Below are positions 9,180 to 15,742 of a stretch of 39,489 bases of DNA, in pieces. Source of the stretch: Rhodospirillaceae bacterium (lineage in GTDB: Bacteria > Pseudomonadota > Alphaproteobacteria > UBA7887); the NCBI GenBank assembly GCA_002728255.1, contig PBWV01000015.1, positions 1-39,489 on the forward strand, given 5' to 3'. The number at the start of each line of letters is the position of its first letter. Within the stretch, counting starts at the first letter, position 1. Position numbers and translations under genes: made by a program. Under the pieces are notes generated by a model. It ran no database searches. It was not told the origin of the DNA and saw only the letters and a program-made list of their open reading frames with translations.

Positions 9180-9575
9180 TTGAAGAAAAATTTTCTACTT
9201 ATAACTGTATGCATAACGGCTTGCCTATTGCTTCTTAATCAAGGATTTATTAAAGCGGGAACTACACCTTCACCCCTAGAAAAGACCATTAATATCCAAA
9301 TTAGAAGCGGAGAGGTATCCGAAACCTCCAAAGTTATTAAGATACTTGAAGGAACAGACTTAACCCTAATCCTAAAAAGTGATCAAACAGTCGCCTTACA
9401 TCTACACGGATACGATATTGTTGCAAAGGTGCCCAAATTTGGCAAAGCATTGATGAAGTTAAATACCTTCGCCACCGGCCGATTCCCTATTAAGATACAT
9501 TCTTCTGCGAAGGATCATCAAGGCAACTCCCATCATGAACGAACCCTCCTTTATCTCGAGGTACACCCTAACTAG
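9180..9575 (+). CDS. Secreted cupredoxin-like protein
   Basis: A 131-residue exported protein with a TTG start at 9180; an in-frame TAG lies four codons upstream and AAGGA about 14 nt upstream, so no other start fits. The first 27 residues form a signal peptide (MKKNFLLITVCITACLLLLN). An ITAC string looks like a lipobox but sits inside the hydrophobic core, so ordinary signal peptidase cleavage is equally likely. The mature part is beta-rich, with VALHLHGYDIVAKVPKFG, FATGRFPIKIH and LLYLEVHP. The clustered histidines (HLHGYD, HSSAKDHQG, SHHE) fit a cupredoxin-type fold that might bind copper or another metal. No classical blue-copper Cys ligand is seen. The 3' end overlaps the next gene by 41 nt. 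Confidence 0.7.
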   Translation: MKKNFLLITVCITACLLLLNQGFIKAGTTPSPLEKTINIQIRSGEVSETSKVIKILEGTDLTLILKSDQTVALHLHGYDIVAKVPKFGKALMKLNTFATGRFPIKIHSSAKDHQGNSHHERTLLYLEVHPN

Positions 9576-11058
9576 CTTGGATTGCGTGAGAAATTTCGGC
9601 GTATTAATTAACACAGGAATTTTTTTGGCTATTTTGTTTGCCTCGAATCCTGTTTTAGCCCATGGTTTTGCATACAAATATGATCTGCCCTTACCACTTA
9701 ATCTTTATGTGTTTGGTTCCTCTTCTATTGTCTTTGTAAGCTTCCTAATGCTTCTTTTCTGGCGAAAAGGGACAAAAGAACTCCTTGACCTGAAATTAAG
9801 TTATACATTTAAGAACCCTAATTTTTACAAAATACAAAGGATGGCTGAAGCGACCCTAGGAACCTTATCCATCATGCTATCAACCATCATTTTATGCGCT
9901 GGTTTTTTTGGTAACTCAAATACTTTGAGTAATCCTCTCCCAGTAACAATTTGGGTATTATGGTGGGTAGGATTTTTTTATTTTACAGCCCTTTGCGTGA
10001 ATATCTGGAATAGTATCAACCCGTGGGCCTTTTCATTCCAGCTAGCAGAAGTTGCCATTGGAAAAAGGATCCAACTTACCTCTTATCCGACTTGGCTGGG
10101 TTATTGGCCCTCTTTCATGTTTTTCCTATCCTTTGTCTGGATTGAATTGGTTTGGCCGCACAAAGAAGTCCCAGCCACTCTGGCAACAGTAATAACTTTA
10201 TACACCCTGATAACTTGGACAGGAATGACAATCTATGGCAAACAGTCCTGGCTTAAATATGGTGAATGTTTTTCAGTAATATTTACCCTGATAGGAAACT
10301 TCTCACCAATCCAATTTTGTAAAACAAAAAAAACTCTCCATATCCAGCCACCCGCCCTTGGTATTCTTAAAATGCAAGAACCTTCTATGGGTCTCGTCTT
10401 TATTACAATACTATTACTGGCTGGGCTTAGCTTTGATGGTTTTATGGCGACCAAGAACTGGTTACAGCTCAAGACGTATTTACTTAATATCAACACCCTT
10501 CATTCAATTTTCAGAGAGCTCCACCAGACCTTCGGCAGTCTGCAACCAATATTGACGACACTCGGACTAGCTTCAACCTTATTACTTTTTCTTTTCACCT
10601 ATATTTTTATATCTTTCCTTACAAAAGTCTTGATCAACTGGACGAGTACGCCGCCAAAATTAAAAGTATCGCTCCCAAAGATAGTAAAACATTTTGTTAT
10701 GACCCTACTTCCCATTGCTATTGGCTATCATATTGCACACTACTTATCCTACCTCTTACTTGCCGGGCAACTAATCATACCTTTGGCATCCGACCCGTAT
10801 GCGTTGGGCTGGGATCTTTTTAACACAAATGATTACCGTATAGACATTGGTATAATTAATGCAAAAAATATGTGGGGCATTACCCTTGTTTCGGTAATAA
10901 TCGGGCATATTCTCAGTATGTTTCTGTCCCATGTTCGGGCGAGTCAATTATGTCTCTCCACCAACAGAATTTTAATTCAATTACCACTTGTTACCCTGAT
11001 GATTTTATACACCGGGGTGAGTCTTTGGATCTTGGCTCAACCTATTGTTGAACTGTGA
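9535..11058 (+). CDS. Large polytopic membrane protein, FedA-like (often annotated fenitrothion hydrolase family)
   Basis: A 507-residue inner-membrane protein with roughly a dozen hydrophobic segments. After a leader-like first segment (FLAILFASNPVLAHG) comes FAYKYDLPLPLNLYVFG. This LAHG...DLP-P-LYV block and the Trp-rich pattern (IWVLWWVGFFYF, NIWNSINPWAF, YPTWLGYWP) resemble the family named after FedA, a fenitrothion hydrolase; that name is a weak guide to function for distant members. C-terminal half has LLPIAIGYHIAHYLSYLL and a GWDLF motif. Conserved His residues in membrane segments could serve metal or heme binding (inference). The start at 9535 overlaps the cupredoxin-like gene in another frame, implying coupled expression. 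Transport or maturation of a metal is a possible role. Confidence 0.68.
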   Translation: MNEPSFISRYTLTSLDCVRNFGVLINTGIFLAILFASNPVLAHGFAYKYDLPLPLNLYVFGSSSIVFVSFLMLLFWRKGTKELLDLKLSYTFKNPNFYKIQRMAEATLGTLSIMLSTIILCAGFFGNSNTLSNPLPVTIWVLWWVGFFYFTALCVNIWNSINPWAFSFQLAEVAIGKRIQLTSYPTWLGYWPSFMFFLSFVWIELVWPHKEVPATLATVITLYTLITWTGMTIYGKQSWLKYGECFSVIFTLIGNFSPIQFCKTKKTLHIQPPALGILKMQEPSMGLVFITILLLAGLSFDGFMATKNWLQLKTYLLNINTLHSIFRELHQTFGSLQPILTTLGLASTLLLFLFTYIFISFLTKVLINWTSTPPKLKVSLPKIVKHFVMTLLPIAIGYHIAHYLSYLLLAGQLIIPLASDPYALGWDLFNTNDYRIDIGIINAKNMWGITLVSVIIGHILSMFLSHVRASQLCLSTNRILIQLPLVTLMILYTGVSLWILAQPIVEL

Positions 11059-11198
11059 AACTTCTCTGGCCTCCTTTTCCTCAAACCATAATTAAGCTCA
11101 GAATCTGATATGTCTCTTTTCAAACTAAAAACATTTTTGTTTTTTCTTCTTAACCCATTAAGGTTAACCTAGTGATACAGAGAATTGTGGAATCCTAA

Positions 11199-12275
11199 AT
11201 GCCAGAAACGAGCTGGTCCTTTGACGTCGATATTGTTGGCCGTTGTAATTTATCTTGCCCCTCCTGCCCAGTAGGGAATATGGCTGGAACACCCCTCCAA
11301 TCCGGGTATATGAGCCCCAAACTTCTTGATCAAATAGTGGGCAAGGCTGTATCAGAATGTAATGTTACAAATTTTGCTCTTTATAATTGGACTGAGCCGT
11401 TTATTCATCCAAAACTTCCGGAGATGATAAGTGTCGTAAAAGCGCATAATATAGGCTGCGACATCAGCACAAATCTCAATTTGGCAAAGCAGATTGACGC
11501 GGTGGTATCAGCGAAGCCGGATACAATCAAAATTTCTGTTTCGGGATTTAATCAAAAAAGCTATGGGACAACACATCGAGGCGGGAACATAGAATTAGTA
11601 AAACAAAACATGCAAATGTTAGCAGACGCTAAAAAATCCTATGACTCTCCAACACGCATACTCGTAATTTTTCATAGGTATCTAGATAATCAAGATGAAG
11701 AGAGCTCTATGCGAAAATTTGCCTTATCCTTAGATTTTGATTTTACGACATATTGGGCTTACCTGATGCCTTTGGAAAAGAATCTTGCCTTTCTCAAATT
11801 AAAGCCTTCGGTAACCCAATTTACAAAACAAGATAAAGCCTTAGTTAATCAGTTAGCCTTTCCCTTGGAAAAGGCATTGTCTGTAGCACGAGATGAGAAC
11901 GTCTCTCAATGTAGGCTGCGTGATAACCAAATGGCAATTAATTCAGAGGGAAAAGTGATGTTATGTTGTTCTGTATTTGACCAAAGCAAGTACCTGTTGG
12001 CCGATTACCTTGATACACCCATTCAAGATTTACAAAAAATGAAACATTCTCACGAGATGTGCACCAAATGCATGCAAGCAGGCCTGCACGTCATGATGAC
12101 CTTTGGCGATAATAAACTACCAAGGTTTGCACTCCGCTTAGAAAAAATGATTCGTCAGAATATCCAAGATAATAATCCTGAACTCGATGTAAAAAAAGCC
12201 TATGGTCCTTACTTTGCAAGGGAAAGCCATCTTATCGGGCTTAAAAGAAAATTCCGTAATTTATTTTTTGGGTAA
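11199..12275 (+). CDS. Radical SAM protein with SPASM-type C-terminal cysteines
   Basis: A 358-residue enzyme. The radical-SAM [4Fe-4S] motif is C16-x3-C20-x2-C23 (GRCNLSCPSC), followed by the ALYNWTEPFIHP segment that matches the GGEP-like region in this subgroup. C-terminal cysteines (QCRL, MLCCSVFD, MCTKCM) are arranged as in SPASM/twitch auxiliary cluster domains, with the usual NSEGKVMLCC before them. SPASM enzymes modify peptides, proteins or small molecules such as cell-wall sugars. No cysteine- or motif-rich precursor peptide is evident next to it, so substrate is unknown. It lies 140 bp after the membrane protein on the same strand. A basic C-terminus ends LIGLKRKFRNLFFG. Confidence 0.85.
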   Translation: MPETSWSFDVDIVGRCNLSCPSCPVGNMAGTPLQSGYMSPKLLDQIVGKAVSECNVTNFALYNWTEPFIHPKLPEMISVVKAHNIGCDISTNLNLAKQIDAVVSAKPDTIKISVSGFNQKSYGTTHRGGNIELVKQNMQMLADAKKSYDSPTRILVIFHRYLDNQDEESSMRKFALSLDFDFTTYWAYLMPLEKNLAFLKLKPSVTQFTKQDKALVNQLAFPLEKALSVARDENVSQCRLRDNQMAINSEGKVMLCCSVFDQSKYLLADYLDTPIQDLQKMKHSHEMCTKCMQAGLHVMMTFGDNKLPRFALRLEKMIRQNIQDNNPELDVKKAYGPYFARESHLIGLKRKFRNLFFG

Positions 12276-12353
12276 AGTTTTTCTCAAATACGGCTAACGC
12301 AGACTTTTCTAATTTAGGGCCTGTTAACTGAACGCCGACACGATTAAAATACC

Positions 12354-13619
12354 TCAATCAGGATAAGGACCATTATTGAAATGGCCGGCAGGATGATACC
12401 ACTTAGGTAGCATAGTTATGGAATTTGGGGCTAGCCCAAGGTCCTTTAACGTATCGATATTACCCTCCACCTCCAGAGATTCTAAATTAATTACAGTGAT
12501 AGAGCCATCATTCATCCCAGGCAGATTAAGCAAGGAATTTTGGACATATGCTTTTTCTTCAGAAGGTGAAAACGCAACGTGATGAGATCCTCCAGCAGTT
12601 GGCAAAGAAGTTATTAAAGACGGGCTCTCTATCCCATTGGATATATCAAAAATATGAAACATTCCAGGATCCGCTGTCGTCACGTAAAGCCTATCTACTT
12701 TTTTATTAAAATAAATTTCTAATGGCATGTGGGCCCCTAATGATCCAAAATCAAAAGCTTTATGCGCAACAAACCTTTCATCTGAAGCGGTCCACACGAG
12801 TACCCATAAGGTATCCTCCATCATATTGGTTACATAAGCAGCAGGGGGGGTTGAGTTAGGTATAAAAACTGCCTCGACTGGAGCGCTATCCCGGTTTTCT
12901 CCGACTACAATAGACCTTATATGCCTGTGAGTGCTGGCTTCAATCACTTCTATGGTATTCCCAACACCACTAAAATCCGGCGCCACACAATTGGCCACGA
13001 TAAGTCGATCAATTTCCTCATTCAAAGCAATTCCATGAGGATAGGTCTTAGGAATTTTTATTATATCTGTTACCAGGTCATTGGCCGCATCGCCTATAAT
13101 AACGTTCTCCGAGCCCATGCAGGTAACATACCAGGTCATATTATCGTCTGAAAAAATAATATTTTCTTGTACTTTACAATCGGGCATAGGAATCGATTTT
13201 AAACGATAGGGAAATTTTTCTAGATCAATTACATACATATCCTTGGAAGACAGGGCCGTAATATACGCTTTGGTCAAATCTCTATTGTAAAAAATATGAT
13301 GCAAAACCAATTCCGGTGAAACTGGAATGTCGATCAAAATATTTCCATAATCTAAGGAAAGAGGGTCTAACTCAATAATTGCTATCCCCTCTCTTCGACC
13401 CTCCCCACCTACTTGCAATTGGAGGGCTTCTAAAGACTCTGGAGCCTTTGACTCATAATTAAGGATAGCCAACATTTCAGCTGAAGCGAAAGGAATAATT
13501 TTGTAAAAACAAATATTTAACACAAACAAAAATATACAGCAAAGCATCTTCCCACGGACTTTGATTTTGTTTGAAAAACCTAAATCCGGAACCAGAATAT
13601 TAGTGGTGCTATTATGCAT
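12354..13619 (-). CDS. Exported YncE-like beta-propeller protein
   Basis: A 421-residue protein made mostly of repeated beta-propeller blades of the YVTN/YncE/SMP-30 kind. Examples are KAYITALSSKDMYVIDLEKF, DRLIVANCVAP, AAYVTNMMEDTLWVLV, DRLYVTTADPGMFHIFDI and KAYVQNSLLNLPGM followed by SITVINLESLEVEG. A hydrophobic stretch at residues 26-46 ends in FASAEM, as expected for a signal peptide with an unusually long basic lead. An alternative start at Met25 (13547) would give a shorter leader but no positive charge; neither has a good Shine-Dalgarno. Function of these propellers is usually unknown; some sit with metal or PQQ systems. It is convergent with the radical SAM gene. Confidence 0.75.
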   Translation of the reverse strand: MHNSTTNILVPDLGFSNKIKVRGKMLCCIFLFVLNICFYKIIPFASAEMLAILNYESKAPESLEALQLQVGGEGRREGIAIIELDPLSLDYGNILIDIPVSPELVLHHIFYNRDLTKAYITALSSKDMYVIDLEKFPYRLKSIPMPDCKVQENIIFSDDNMTWYVTCMGSENVIIGDAANDLVTDIIKIPKTYPHGIALNEEIDRLIVANCVAPDFSGVGNTIEVIEASTHRHIRSIVVGENRDSAPVEAVFIPNSTPPAAYVTNMMEDTLWVLVWTASDERFVAHKAFDFGSLGAHMPLEIYFNKKVDRLYVTTADPGMFHIFDISNGIESPSLITSLPTAGGSHHVAFSPSEEKAYVQNSLLNLPGMNDGSITVINLESLEVEGNIDTLKDLGLAPNSITMLPKWYHPAGHFNNGPYPD

Positions 13620-15664: not shown

Positions 15665-15742
15665 TGGGGCGAGTGAGCGGATTTGAACCGCCGACTTCTT
15701 GATCCACAATCAAGCGCTCTAACCAACTGAGCTACACCCGCC
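15665..15742 (-). tRNA. tRNA-His (GTG anticodon) with encoded CCA
   Basis: The complement folds into a full cloverleaf. The anticodon stem CTTGA/TCAAG encloses the loop TTGTGGA, so the anticodon is GTG (His). The T arm contains GGTTCAAATCC. The acceptor 5' end is G-1 G1 C2 G3 G4 and the 3' end is C73 followed by encoded CCA, so the extra G-1 can pair with C73. One G-U pair occurs at 4-69 and another at 49-65. A run of six T follows the CCA, which could end transcription. This canonical tRNA-His form differs from the A73, G-1-lacking form reported for Rhizobiales, Rhodobacterales and Caulobacterales. Confidence 0.96.

Follow-up and report, generated by a model that had tools for sequence, protein, structure and literature searches.

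A widespread cupredoxin and membrane protein gene pair with a predicted N-terminal histidine: a candidate copper-supply module with a recurrent beta-propeller neighbour

Introduction

How copper reaches exported and membrane-bound enzymes, among them the hydrocarbon- and ammonia-oxidising monooxygenases, is understood only in part. Subunit B of particulate methane monooxygenase (pMMO) contains cupredoxin domains. An N-terminal histidine is a hallmark of CopC, of the lytic polysaccharide monooxygenases (LPMOs) and of site B of pMMO (PMC10952591), and is found also in YcnI (PMC12362106). A pair of adjacent histidines (HH) is reported to provide copper ligands in methanethiol oxidase (MTO) of Hyphomicrobium (His89/His90; PMC5739008) and in human SELENBP1 (His73/His74; PMC10362175). 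Here we analyse a 39,489-nucleotide stretch of a Rhodospirillaceae bacterium assembly (contig PBWV01000015.1 of GCA_002728255.1; hereafter, the window) that encodes an exported cupredoxin-like protein (cup) and a polytopic membrane protein (mem), along with a radical S-adenosylmethionine (SAM) protein and an exported beta-propeller. The original prediction, made from the sequence of the window, joined these four genes in a system for metal handling or for cofactor or peptide maturation at the cell envelope. What is new here is an invariant histidine located directly past a predicted signal-peptidase-type site in a widespread, undescribed cup-mem pair.

Results

Scanning 85,000 species genomes with a profile recovered at least 435 relatives of mem, 80 of which were kept for neighbourhood counts. 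These relatives were retrieved with an alignment as the query; the window mem alone as the query gave no match in genome contigs. The mem family spans bacteria and haloarchaea, with cultured Bradyrhizobium, Rhizobium, Variovorax and environmental Mycobacterium strains among the hosts. At least 56 of the 80 loci, across several phyla, have cup immediately upstream of mem in the same orientation, with two further cup genes masked by over-long starts of open reading frames (ORFs) in gene calling. In the relatives, the two genes mostly overlap by 4 nt or are separated by a short gap. In the window, the 41-nt overlap noted in the original prediction holds if mem starts at the ATG at 9535, and disappears if the in-frame TTG at 9577 or GTG at 9586 is used, either of which leaves a leader of 25-28 residues before His43 of mem and zero overlap with cup.

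For mem, Pfam gave a consistent match in none of the 70 aligned members, and searches of NCBIfam and of PDB sequences returned no match for the window protein. The AlphaFold2 model built from the 70 sequences has a predicted local distance difference test score (pLDDT) of 94.2 and a predicted template modelling score (pTM) of 0.92; a Foldseek search of the PDB with this model gave no match (best E 0.21, probabilities of at most 0.12). Ten transmembrane (TM) helices with both ends outside fit the helix positions in the model as well as the positive-inside distribution of loop charges. Two candidate identities, CopD (PF05425) and CtaG (PF09678), were rejected: neither was detected by Pfam in any of the 70 members, and hhalign comparison with one CopD domain sequence and one CtaG sequence yielded probabilities of 0.15 and 0.14, respectively.

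The most striking feature of the mem alignment is His43, invariant in 70 of 70 members and located immediately past an AxA-type signal-peptidase-like site (VLA|HGFAYKYD in the window protein). The -3/-1 rule is obeyed in all 93 mem sequences bearing the histidine motif. If cleaved at the predicted site, the exported protein should begin with histidine. Conservation extends to Y398, H402, D301, S419, P421, W447 and H458, all present in 70 of 70 members, to H466, D420, Q412 and W426 (69 of 70 each), and to H399 (60 of 70). H399 and H402 belong to TM9, and H458 and H466 to TM10, where even the mycobacterial and haloarchaeal members, with about 25% identity, still have the GH...AH motif.

The window cup alone has no Pfam match. 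A profile of 32 cup members aligned in the PDB with cytochrome oxidase subunit II (E 3e-6), small laccases and nitrosocyanin, and Pfam Cupredoxin_1 was matched by 15 of the 32 members, the window protein on its own not being among them. Judged by its family profile, cup is a cupredoxin. Free variation of the histidines, which would have counted against the original prediction, is not seen in cup: H74 is present in 66 of 67 sequences, H76 in 66 of 68 and H107 in 65 of 67, along with Y78 in 67 of 68. There is no conserved cysteine column in the cup alignment and, therefore, this is not a type-1 blue copper protein.

Among the neighbours of the pair, the propeller gene recurs, as the original prediction expected of it. 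It adjoins mem on the opposite strand in 20 of the 80 loci, and both cup and the propeller are present in 15. In a comparison of 385 genomes of the class, mem was matched in 36, one of these by chance (an apparent remnant of 28 residues in G125, a genome of the same family that encodes no cup, propeller or syntenic alpha/beta hydrolase). The propeller was matched in 11 of the 385 genomes, 9 of which also carry mem (Fisher p = 7e-9). On the mem tree, the propeller association requires 9 changes, at least 4 of them forced by well-supported branches, compared with 15.7 for shuffled labels, and none of 500 shuffles was as low; the small number of changes implies that the mem-propeller link recurs. 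Taken together, the recurrence counts and the tree identify cup-mem as the core and the propeller as a recurrent partner that was gained or lost several times. A search of plasmids for the propeller gave no match.

The AlphaFold2 model of the propeller (pLDDT 88.9) has a fold that matches many beta-propellers, with Sulfolobus SBP56 (2ece) as the top PDB match in Foldseek (E 6.7e-15, TMq 0.76). All 17 aligned members weakly match the methanethiol oxidase (MtoX) model NF052453, 13 of the 17, the window protein not included, weakly match Pfam SBP56 (E <= 0.01), and 6 of the 17 match the lactonase-type NosZ model. In an hhalign profile comparison with methanethiol oxidases (E 2e-10), H107-H108 aligned with the HH pair. 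Residues H107, H195, H322, C148 and C167 are invariant, and H108, H346, H347, H413, E152, E249 and E301 nearly so. When conservation in the alignment is combined with strand positions in the model, the HH pair, E152, H195, E249, E301 and H346/H347 map, one blade after another, to the beginning of the innermost strand or close to it, where they would line the channel as a ring of probable ligands. With seven blades, the SBP56 fold and the conserved HH pair, the protein belongs to the SBP56 superfamily as a remote relative. Methanethiol oxidase proper was rejected as an identity: the window protein scores 25.9 bits against a curated cut-off of 650 bits, and the ligand set of the Hyphomicrobium enzyme (His89, His90, His140 and His412) is incomplete, with the HH pair kept, Glu152 in the region of His140 and no established equivalent of His412.

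A distinct, exported Kelch-type propeller adjoins mem, mostly together with cup, in genomes labelled Rhizobiaceae and Asaia (L191:11411-12382; also L166, L168, L176 and L179). Some mem proteins, in Rhizobiales, Acetobacteraceae and Rokubacteria, carry at the C-terminus a fused, unannotated domain of about 400 residues (L126:11384-12583; also L125, L152, L160, L145 and L177), and a LIV-type (branched-chain amino acid) ABC transporter is encoded near the fusion in most of the Rhizobiales loci and some of the Acetobacteraceae loci.

Several neighbourhoods connect the pair with copper. On plasmids of Mycobacterium dioxanotrophicus and M. chubuense, cup and mem overlap by 4 nt and lie close to an operon for a copper membrane monooxygenase (pmo/amoCAB-type). 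A plasmid island of M. gallinarum combines the pair with CopC, a metal-sensitive regulator, oxidase subunit III, an oxidase assembly gene, and other metal and sulfur genes. In Sulfitobacter, a gene annotated as PCu(A)C, with PF04314 above the cut-off, is divergent from mem, and in other loci PCuAC-related domains are encoded near cup or fused to it. An exported protein weakly similar to YtkA is encoded near mem in 11 loci, mostly in Chloroflexota. The location of cup-mem beside genes for the monooxygenase, PCu(A)C, CopC and oxidase assembly indicates copper as the likely metal. On a Haladaptatus plasmid (L096:6010-9418), a mem homologue lies between a gene for aldehyde ferredoxin oxidoreductase and a small gene that seems to encode a zinc finger with one membrane helix.

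The radical SAM gene of the window starts 140 bp past mem, on the same strand; its product matches PF04055 above the cut-off and the SPASM model slightly under the cut-off, and shows weak similarity to tungsten-cofactor and peptide maturases. The original prediction included this gene in the system, and this part of it fails. The gene was found in none of the 80 mem loci (within about 10 kb). It was matched in 9 of the 385 genomes, independently of mem (Fisher p = 0.58), and the window genome is the only one with both. No radical SAM gene is present between mem and the propeller in six loci, four of the same family (G229, G313, G387 and G389) and two from near relatives (L113 and L114), in all of which the two genes face each other 15-21 bp apart. 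In most cases, the better relatives (34-51% identity) have genes for glycosyltransferases, polysaccharide export and nucleotide sugars as neighbours. As a conserved part of the system, the radical SAM protein is thus refuted by the lack of recurrence, the six loci without it and the glycan-cluster relatives, and the gene is best seen as a local insertion or a chance neighbour.

All four ORFs proposed in the original prediction are real (Table 1). The window is the first part of a 92,805-base contig in a 2.5-Mb assembly of 53 contigs, in which mem is single-copy; close relatives are metagenome-assembled genomes labelled Alphaproteobacteria and Rhodospirillaceae (L113 and L114). The guanine-plus-cytosine content of the four-gene block (9180-13619) is 39.4%, against 46-47% in the flanks; relatives with this gene order show no such drop. 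On the mem tree, the window protein forms a long branch. The low content and the long branch together indicate an unusual recent history of this copy. In close relatives, a cupin-like gene (131-134 aa) that is missing from the window is located between an alpha/beta hydrolase gene and cup (L113:4961-5790, L114:6680-7075 and L051:8118-8950), and L113 and L051 additionally encode in that interval an exported protein of 102-106 aa, which the window also lacks. A single tRNA-His gene (GTG anticodon) is located at 15665-15741 of the window, about 2 kb past the block.

Table 1. Genes of the block and the His43 codon of mem, in window coordinates
Feature	Position	Strand	Description
cup	9180-9575	+	131 aa, TTG start; exported cupredoxin-like protein; HLHGY motif with H74/H76/Y78, and H107; no conserved Cys ligand
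mem	9535-11058	+	507 aa polytopic membrane protein; 10 TM helices proposed, N-out/C-out; start at 9535, 9577 or 9586
His43 codon of mem	9661-9663	+	predicted mature N-terminus (VLA|H); invariant in 70- and 72-member alignments
Radical SAM gene	11199-12275	+	358 aa radical SAM/SPASM protein between mem and propeller; judged a passenger outside the module
Propeller	12354-13619	-	421 aa exported seven-bladed beta-propeller; remote SBP56/methanethiol oxidase relative

Discussion

The reading that we prefer, at a probability of about 0.5, is that cup and mem constitute a module for copper handling or supply at the outer face of the inner membrane. The mem protein would be exported and probably cut by signal peptidase, leaving histidine as the first residue. 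Copper would be bound by the N-terminus together with the periplasmic loops (D301, S419-D420-P421 and W426); its passage through the membrane, or its retention there, would fall to H399/H402 in TM9 and H458/H466 in TM10. The cup protein may contact mem and receive or present copper via its HxH motif and H107, and would shuttle the metal to a client enzyme. In the window genome the client is probably the neighbouring propeller, as it may be in many proteobacteria, where the propeller would act as a copper enzyme; the client would differ by lineage, a copper membrane monooxygenase being a candidate in mycobacteria. The metal handling at the envelope proposed in the original prediction is thus supported for cup, mem and the propeller, by recurrence, conserved histidines and copper-gene neighbours, and fails for the radical SAM protein.

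Several observations weigh against this interpretation. About a quarter of the 80 loci have no cup beside mem, and most have no propeller. Some contexts show no obvious copper link, such as LIV-type ABC transporters, molybdenum hydroxylases and aldehyde ferredoxin oxidoreductase. In the mycobacterial members of the mem family, the conserved histidine is preceded by only about 7-10 residues, fewer than a classical signal peptide requires; cleavage is therefore doubtful there, and a free N-terminal histidine would not be universal in the wider family. The propeller has no equivalent of the third MTO ligand, His140, a glutamate occupying the nearest place, and the L140 propeller (L140:8188-9342) has lost H108 and H346/H347, that is, three of the four paired histidines. 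The latter losses fit a site that members of the family can do without, and L140 is possibly a non-metal paralogue.

Some of the same contexts would suit a quinone-linked redox relay, in which mem draws electrons from the quinone pool, or feeds them into it, at a haem or copper site on H402/H458/H466, with cup as the carrier, in either direction, between mem and an exported or membrane enzyme. The pair does occur in oxidoreductase-rich settings (a molybdenum hydroxylase with 6-hydroxynicotinate reductase, nicotinate dehydrogenase, aldehyde ferredoxin oxidoreductase, the copper membrane monooxygenase), invariant histidines in two neighbouring mem helices suit a bis-His cofactor, and the cup profile resembles cytochrome oxidase subunit II and nitrosocyanin. 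Nevertheless, we regard such a relay as rather unlikely: fold and sequence searches gave no convincing match to a haem protein, the absence of a conserved cysteine in cup leaves no classical type-1 or CuA electron-transfer site, and co-location with PCu(A)C and CopC is better suited to trafficking. A step further, the cup-mem complex could itself be a membrane-bound copper enzyme, an oxygenase or hydrolase with a histidine-brace-like site at the mem N-terminus. The predicted N-terminal histidine, a feature of LPMOs and of site B in pMMO as well (PMC10952591), the invariant His, Asp and Trp of a membrane fold that appears to be new, and catabolic neighbours (acyl-CoA dehydrogenases, short-chain dehydrogenases/reductases and the alpha/beta hydrolase) point that way, but the pair often lies beside another candidate copper enzyme, suggesting an accessory role, and we find this identity unlikely.

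The M. gallinarum island, with CopC, the metal-sensitive regulator, and the other metal and sulfur genes, is what one would expect if cup and mem served copper resistance or export, removing or sequestering periplasmic copper. The neighbourhoods, however, are for the most part metabolic and not those of resistance operons, and linkage to the propeller or to monooxygenases points to supply, so that such a role appears improbable. By far the least credible proposal gives the radical SAM enzyme the task of maturing the exported propeller or the cupredoxin, as part of a peptide- or cofactor-maturation system; its place on the mem strand and its weak resemblance to maturases are outweighed by its absence from the 80 loci and from the equivalent place in the six related ones, by its independence of mem and by the glycan-cluster setting of its relatives.

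Beyond copper supply as such, we tentatively consider that mem might represent a new kind of membrane copper protein with a fold unlike those solved, in which an N-terminal histidine, exposed on the outer side of the membrane, lies above a cluster of invariant intramembrane histidines. Such a protein, common to bacteria and haloarchaea and served by a dedicated cupredoxin partner, would join a histidine-brace-like site and a copper conduit or redox centre in one polypeptide. If copper supply by cup and mem is the correct interpretation, the pathway gains a widespread component that has a candidate N-terminal histidine site and no named family or known fold; the propeller, in turn, would extend the copper-dependent SBP56/methanethiol oxidase group by a new branch.

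Comparison with known systems

The closest parallels are CopC/CopD and the YcnI-YcnJ copper uptake system of Bacillus subtilis. Like these, cup-mem would pair a periplasmic copper-binding beta-barrel protein (cup, by our inference) with a polytopic membrane protein and would place a mature N-terminal histidine (predicted in mem) on the outer face; in some lineages, YtkA- or PCuAC-type genes adjoin as well. Unlike in these systems, the membrane protein shows no sequence relation to CopD, and the predicted N-terminal histidine is on the membrane protein itself, which lacks a CopC domain. With respect to histidine-brace proteins in general, mem has the predicted AxA|H site in 93 of 93 motif-bearing sequences, with too short a leader in the mycobacterial members, and its further invariant histidines are candidate second ligands.

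The cup profile aligns with nitrosocyanin and cytochrome oxidase subunit II, from which cup differs in conserving HxH and a third histidine, with no conserved cysteine ligand. The resemblance to pMMO and ammonia monooxygenase (AMO) lies in the cupredoxin, a domain type found also in subunit B of pMMO, in the predicted N-terminal histidine of mem, pMMO having a copper site of that kind (PMC10952591), and in the two mycobacterial plasmids where cup-mem adjoins such operons; by Pfam, mem is not a homologue of PmoA, PmoB or PmoC, and its fold has no PDB match. The window propeller resembles SBP56 and methanethiol oxidase in being exported and seven-bladed, with an HH pair and acidic residues in the channel, and in having a putative copper-delivery gene alongside (PMC5739008). 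Unlike in MTO, at about 26 bits it is far under the 650-bit cut-off and has no recognised equivalent of His140, and its recurring neighbours are cup and mem rather than SCO1/senC and mauG.

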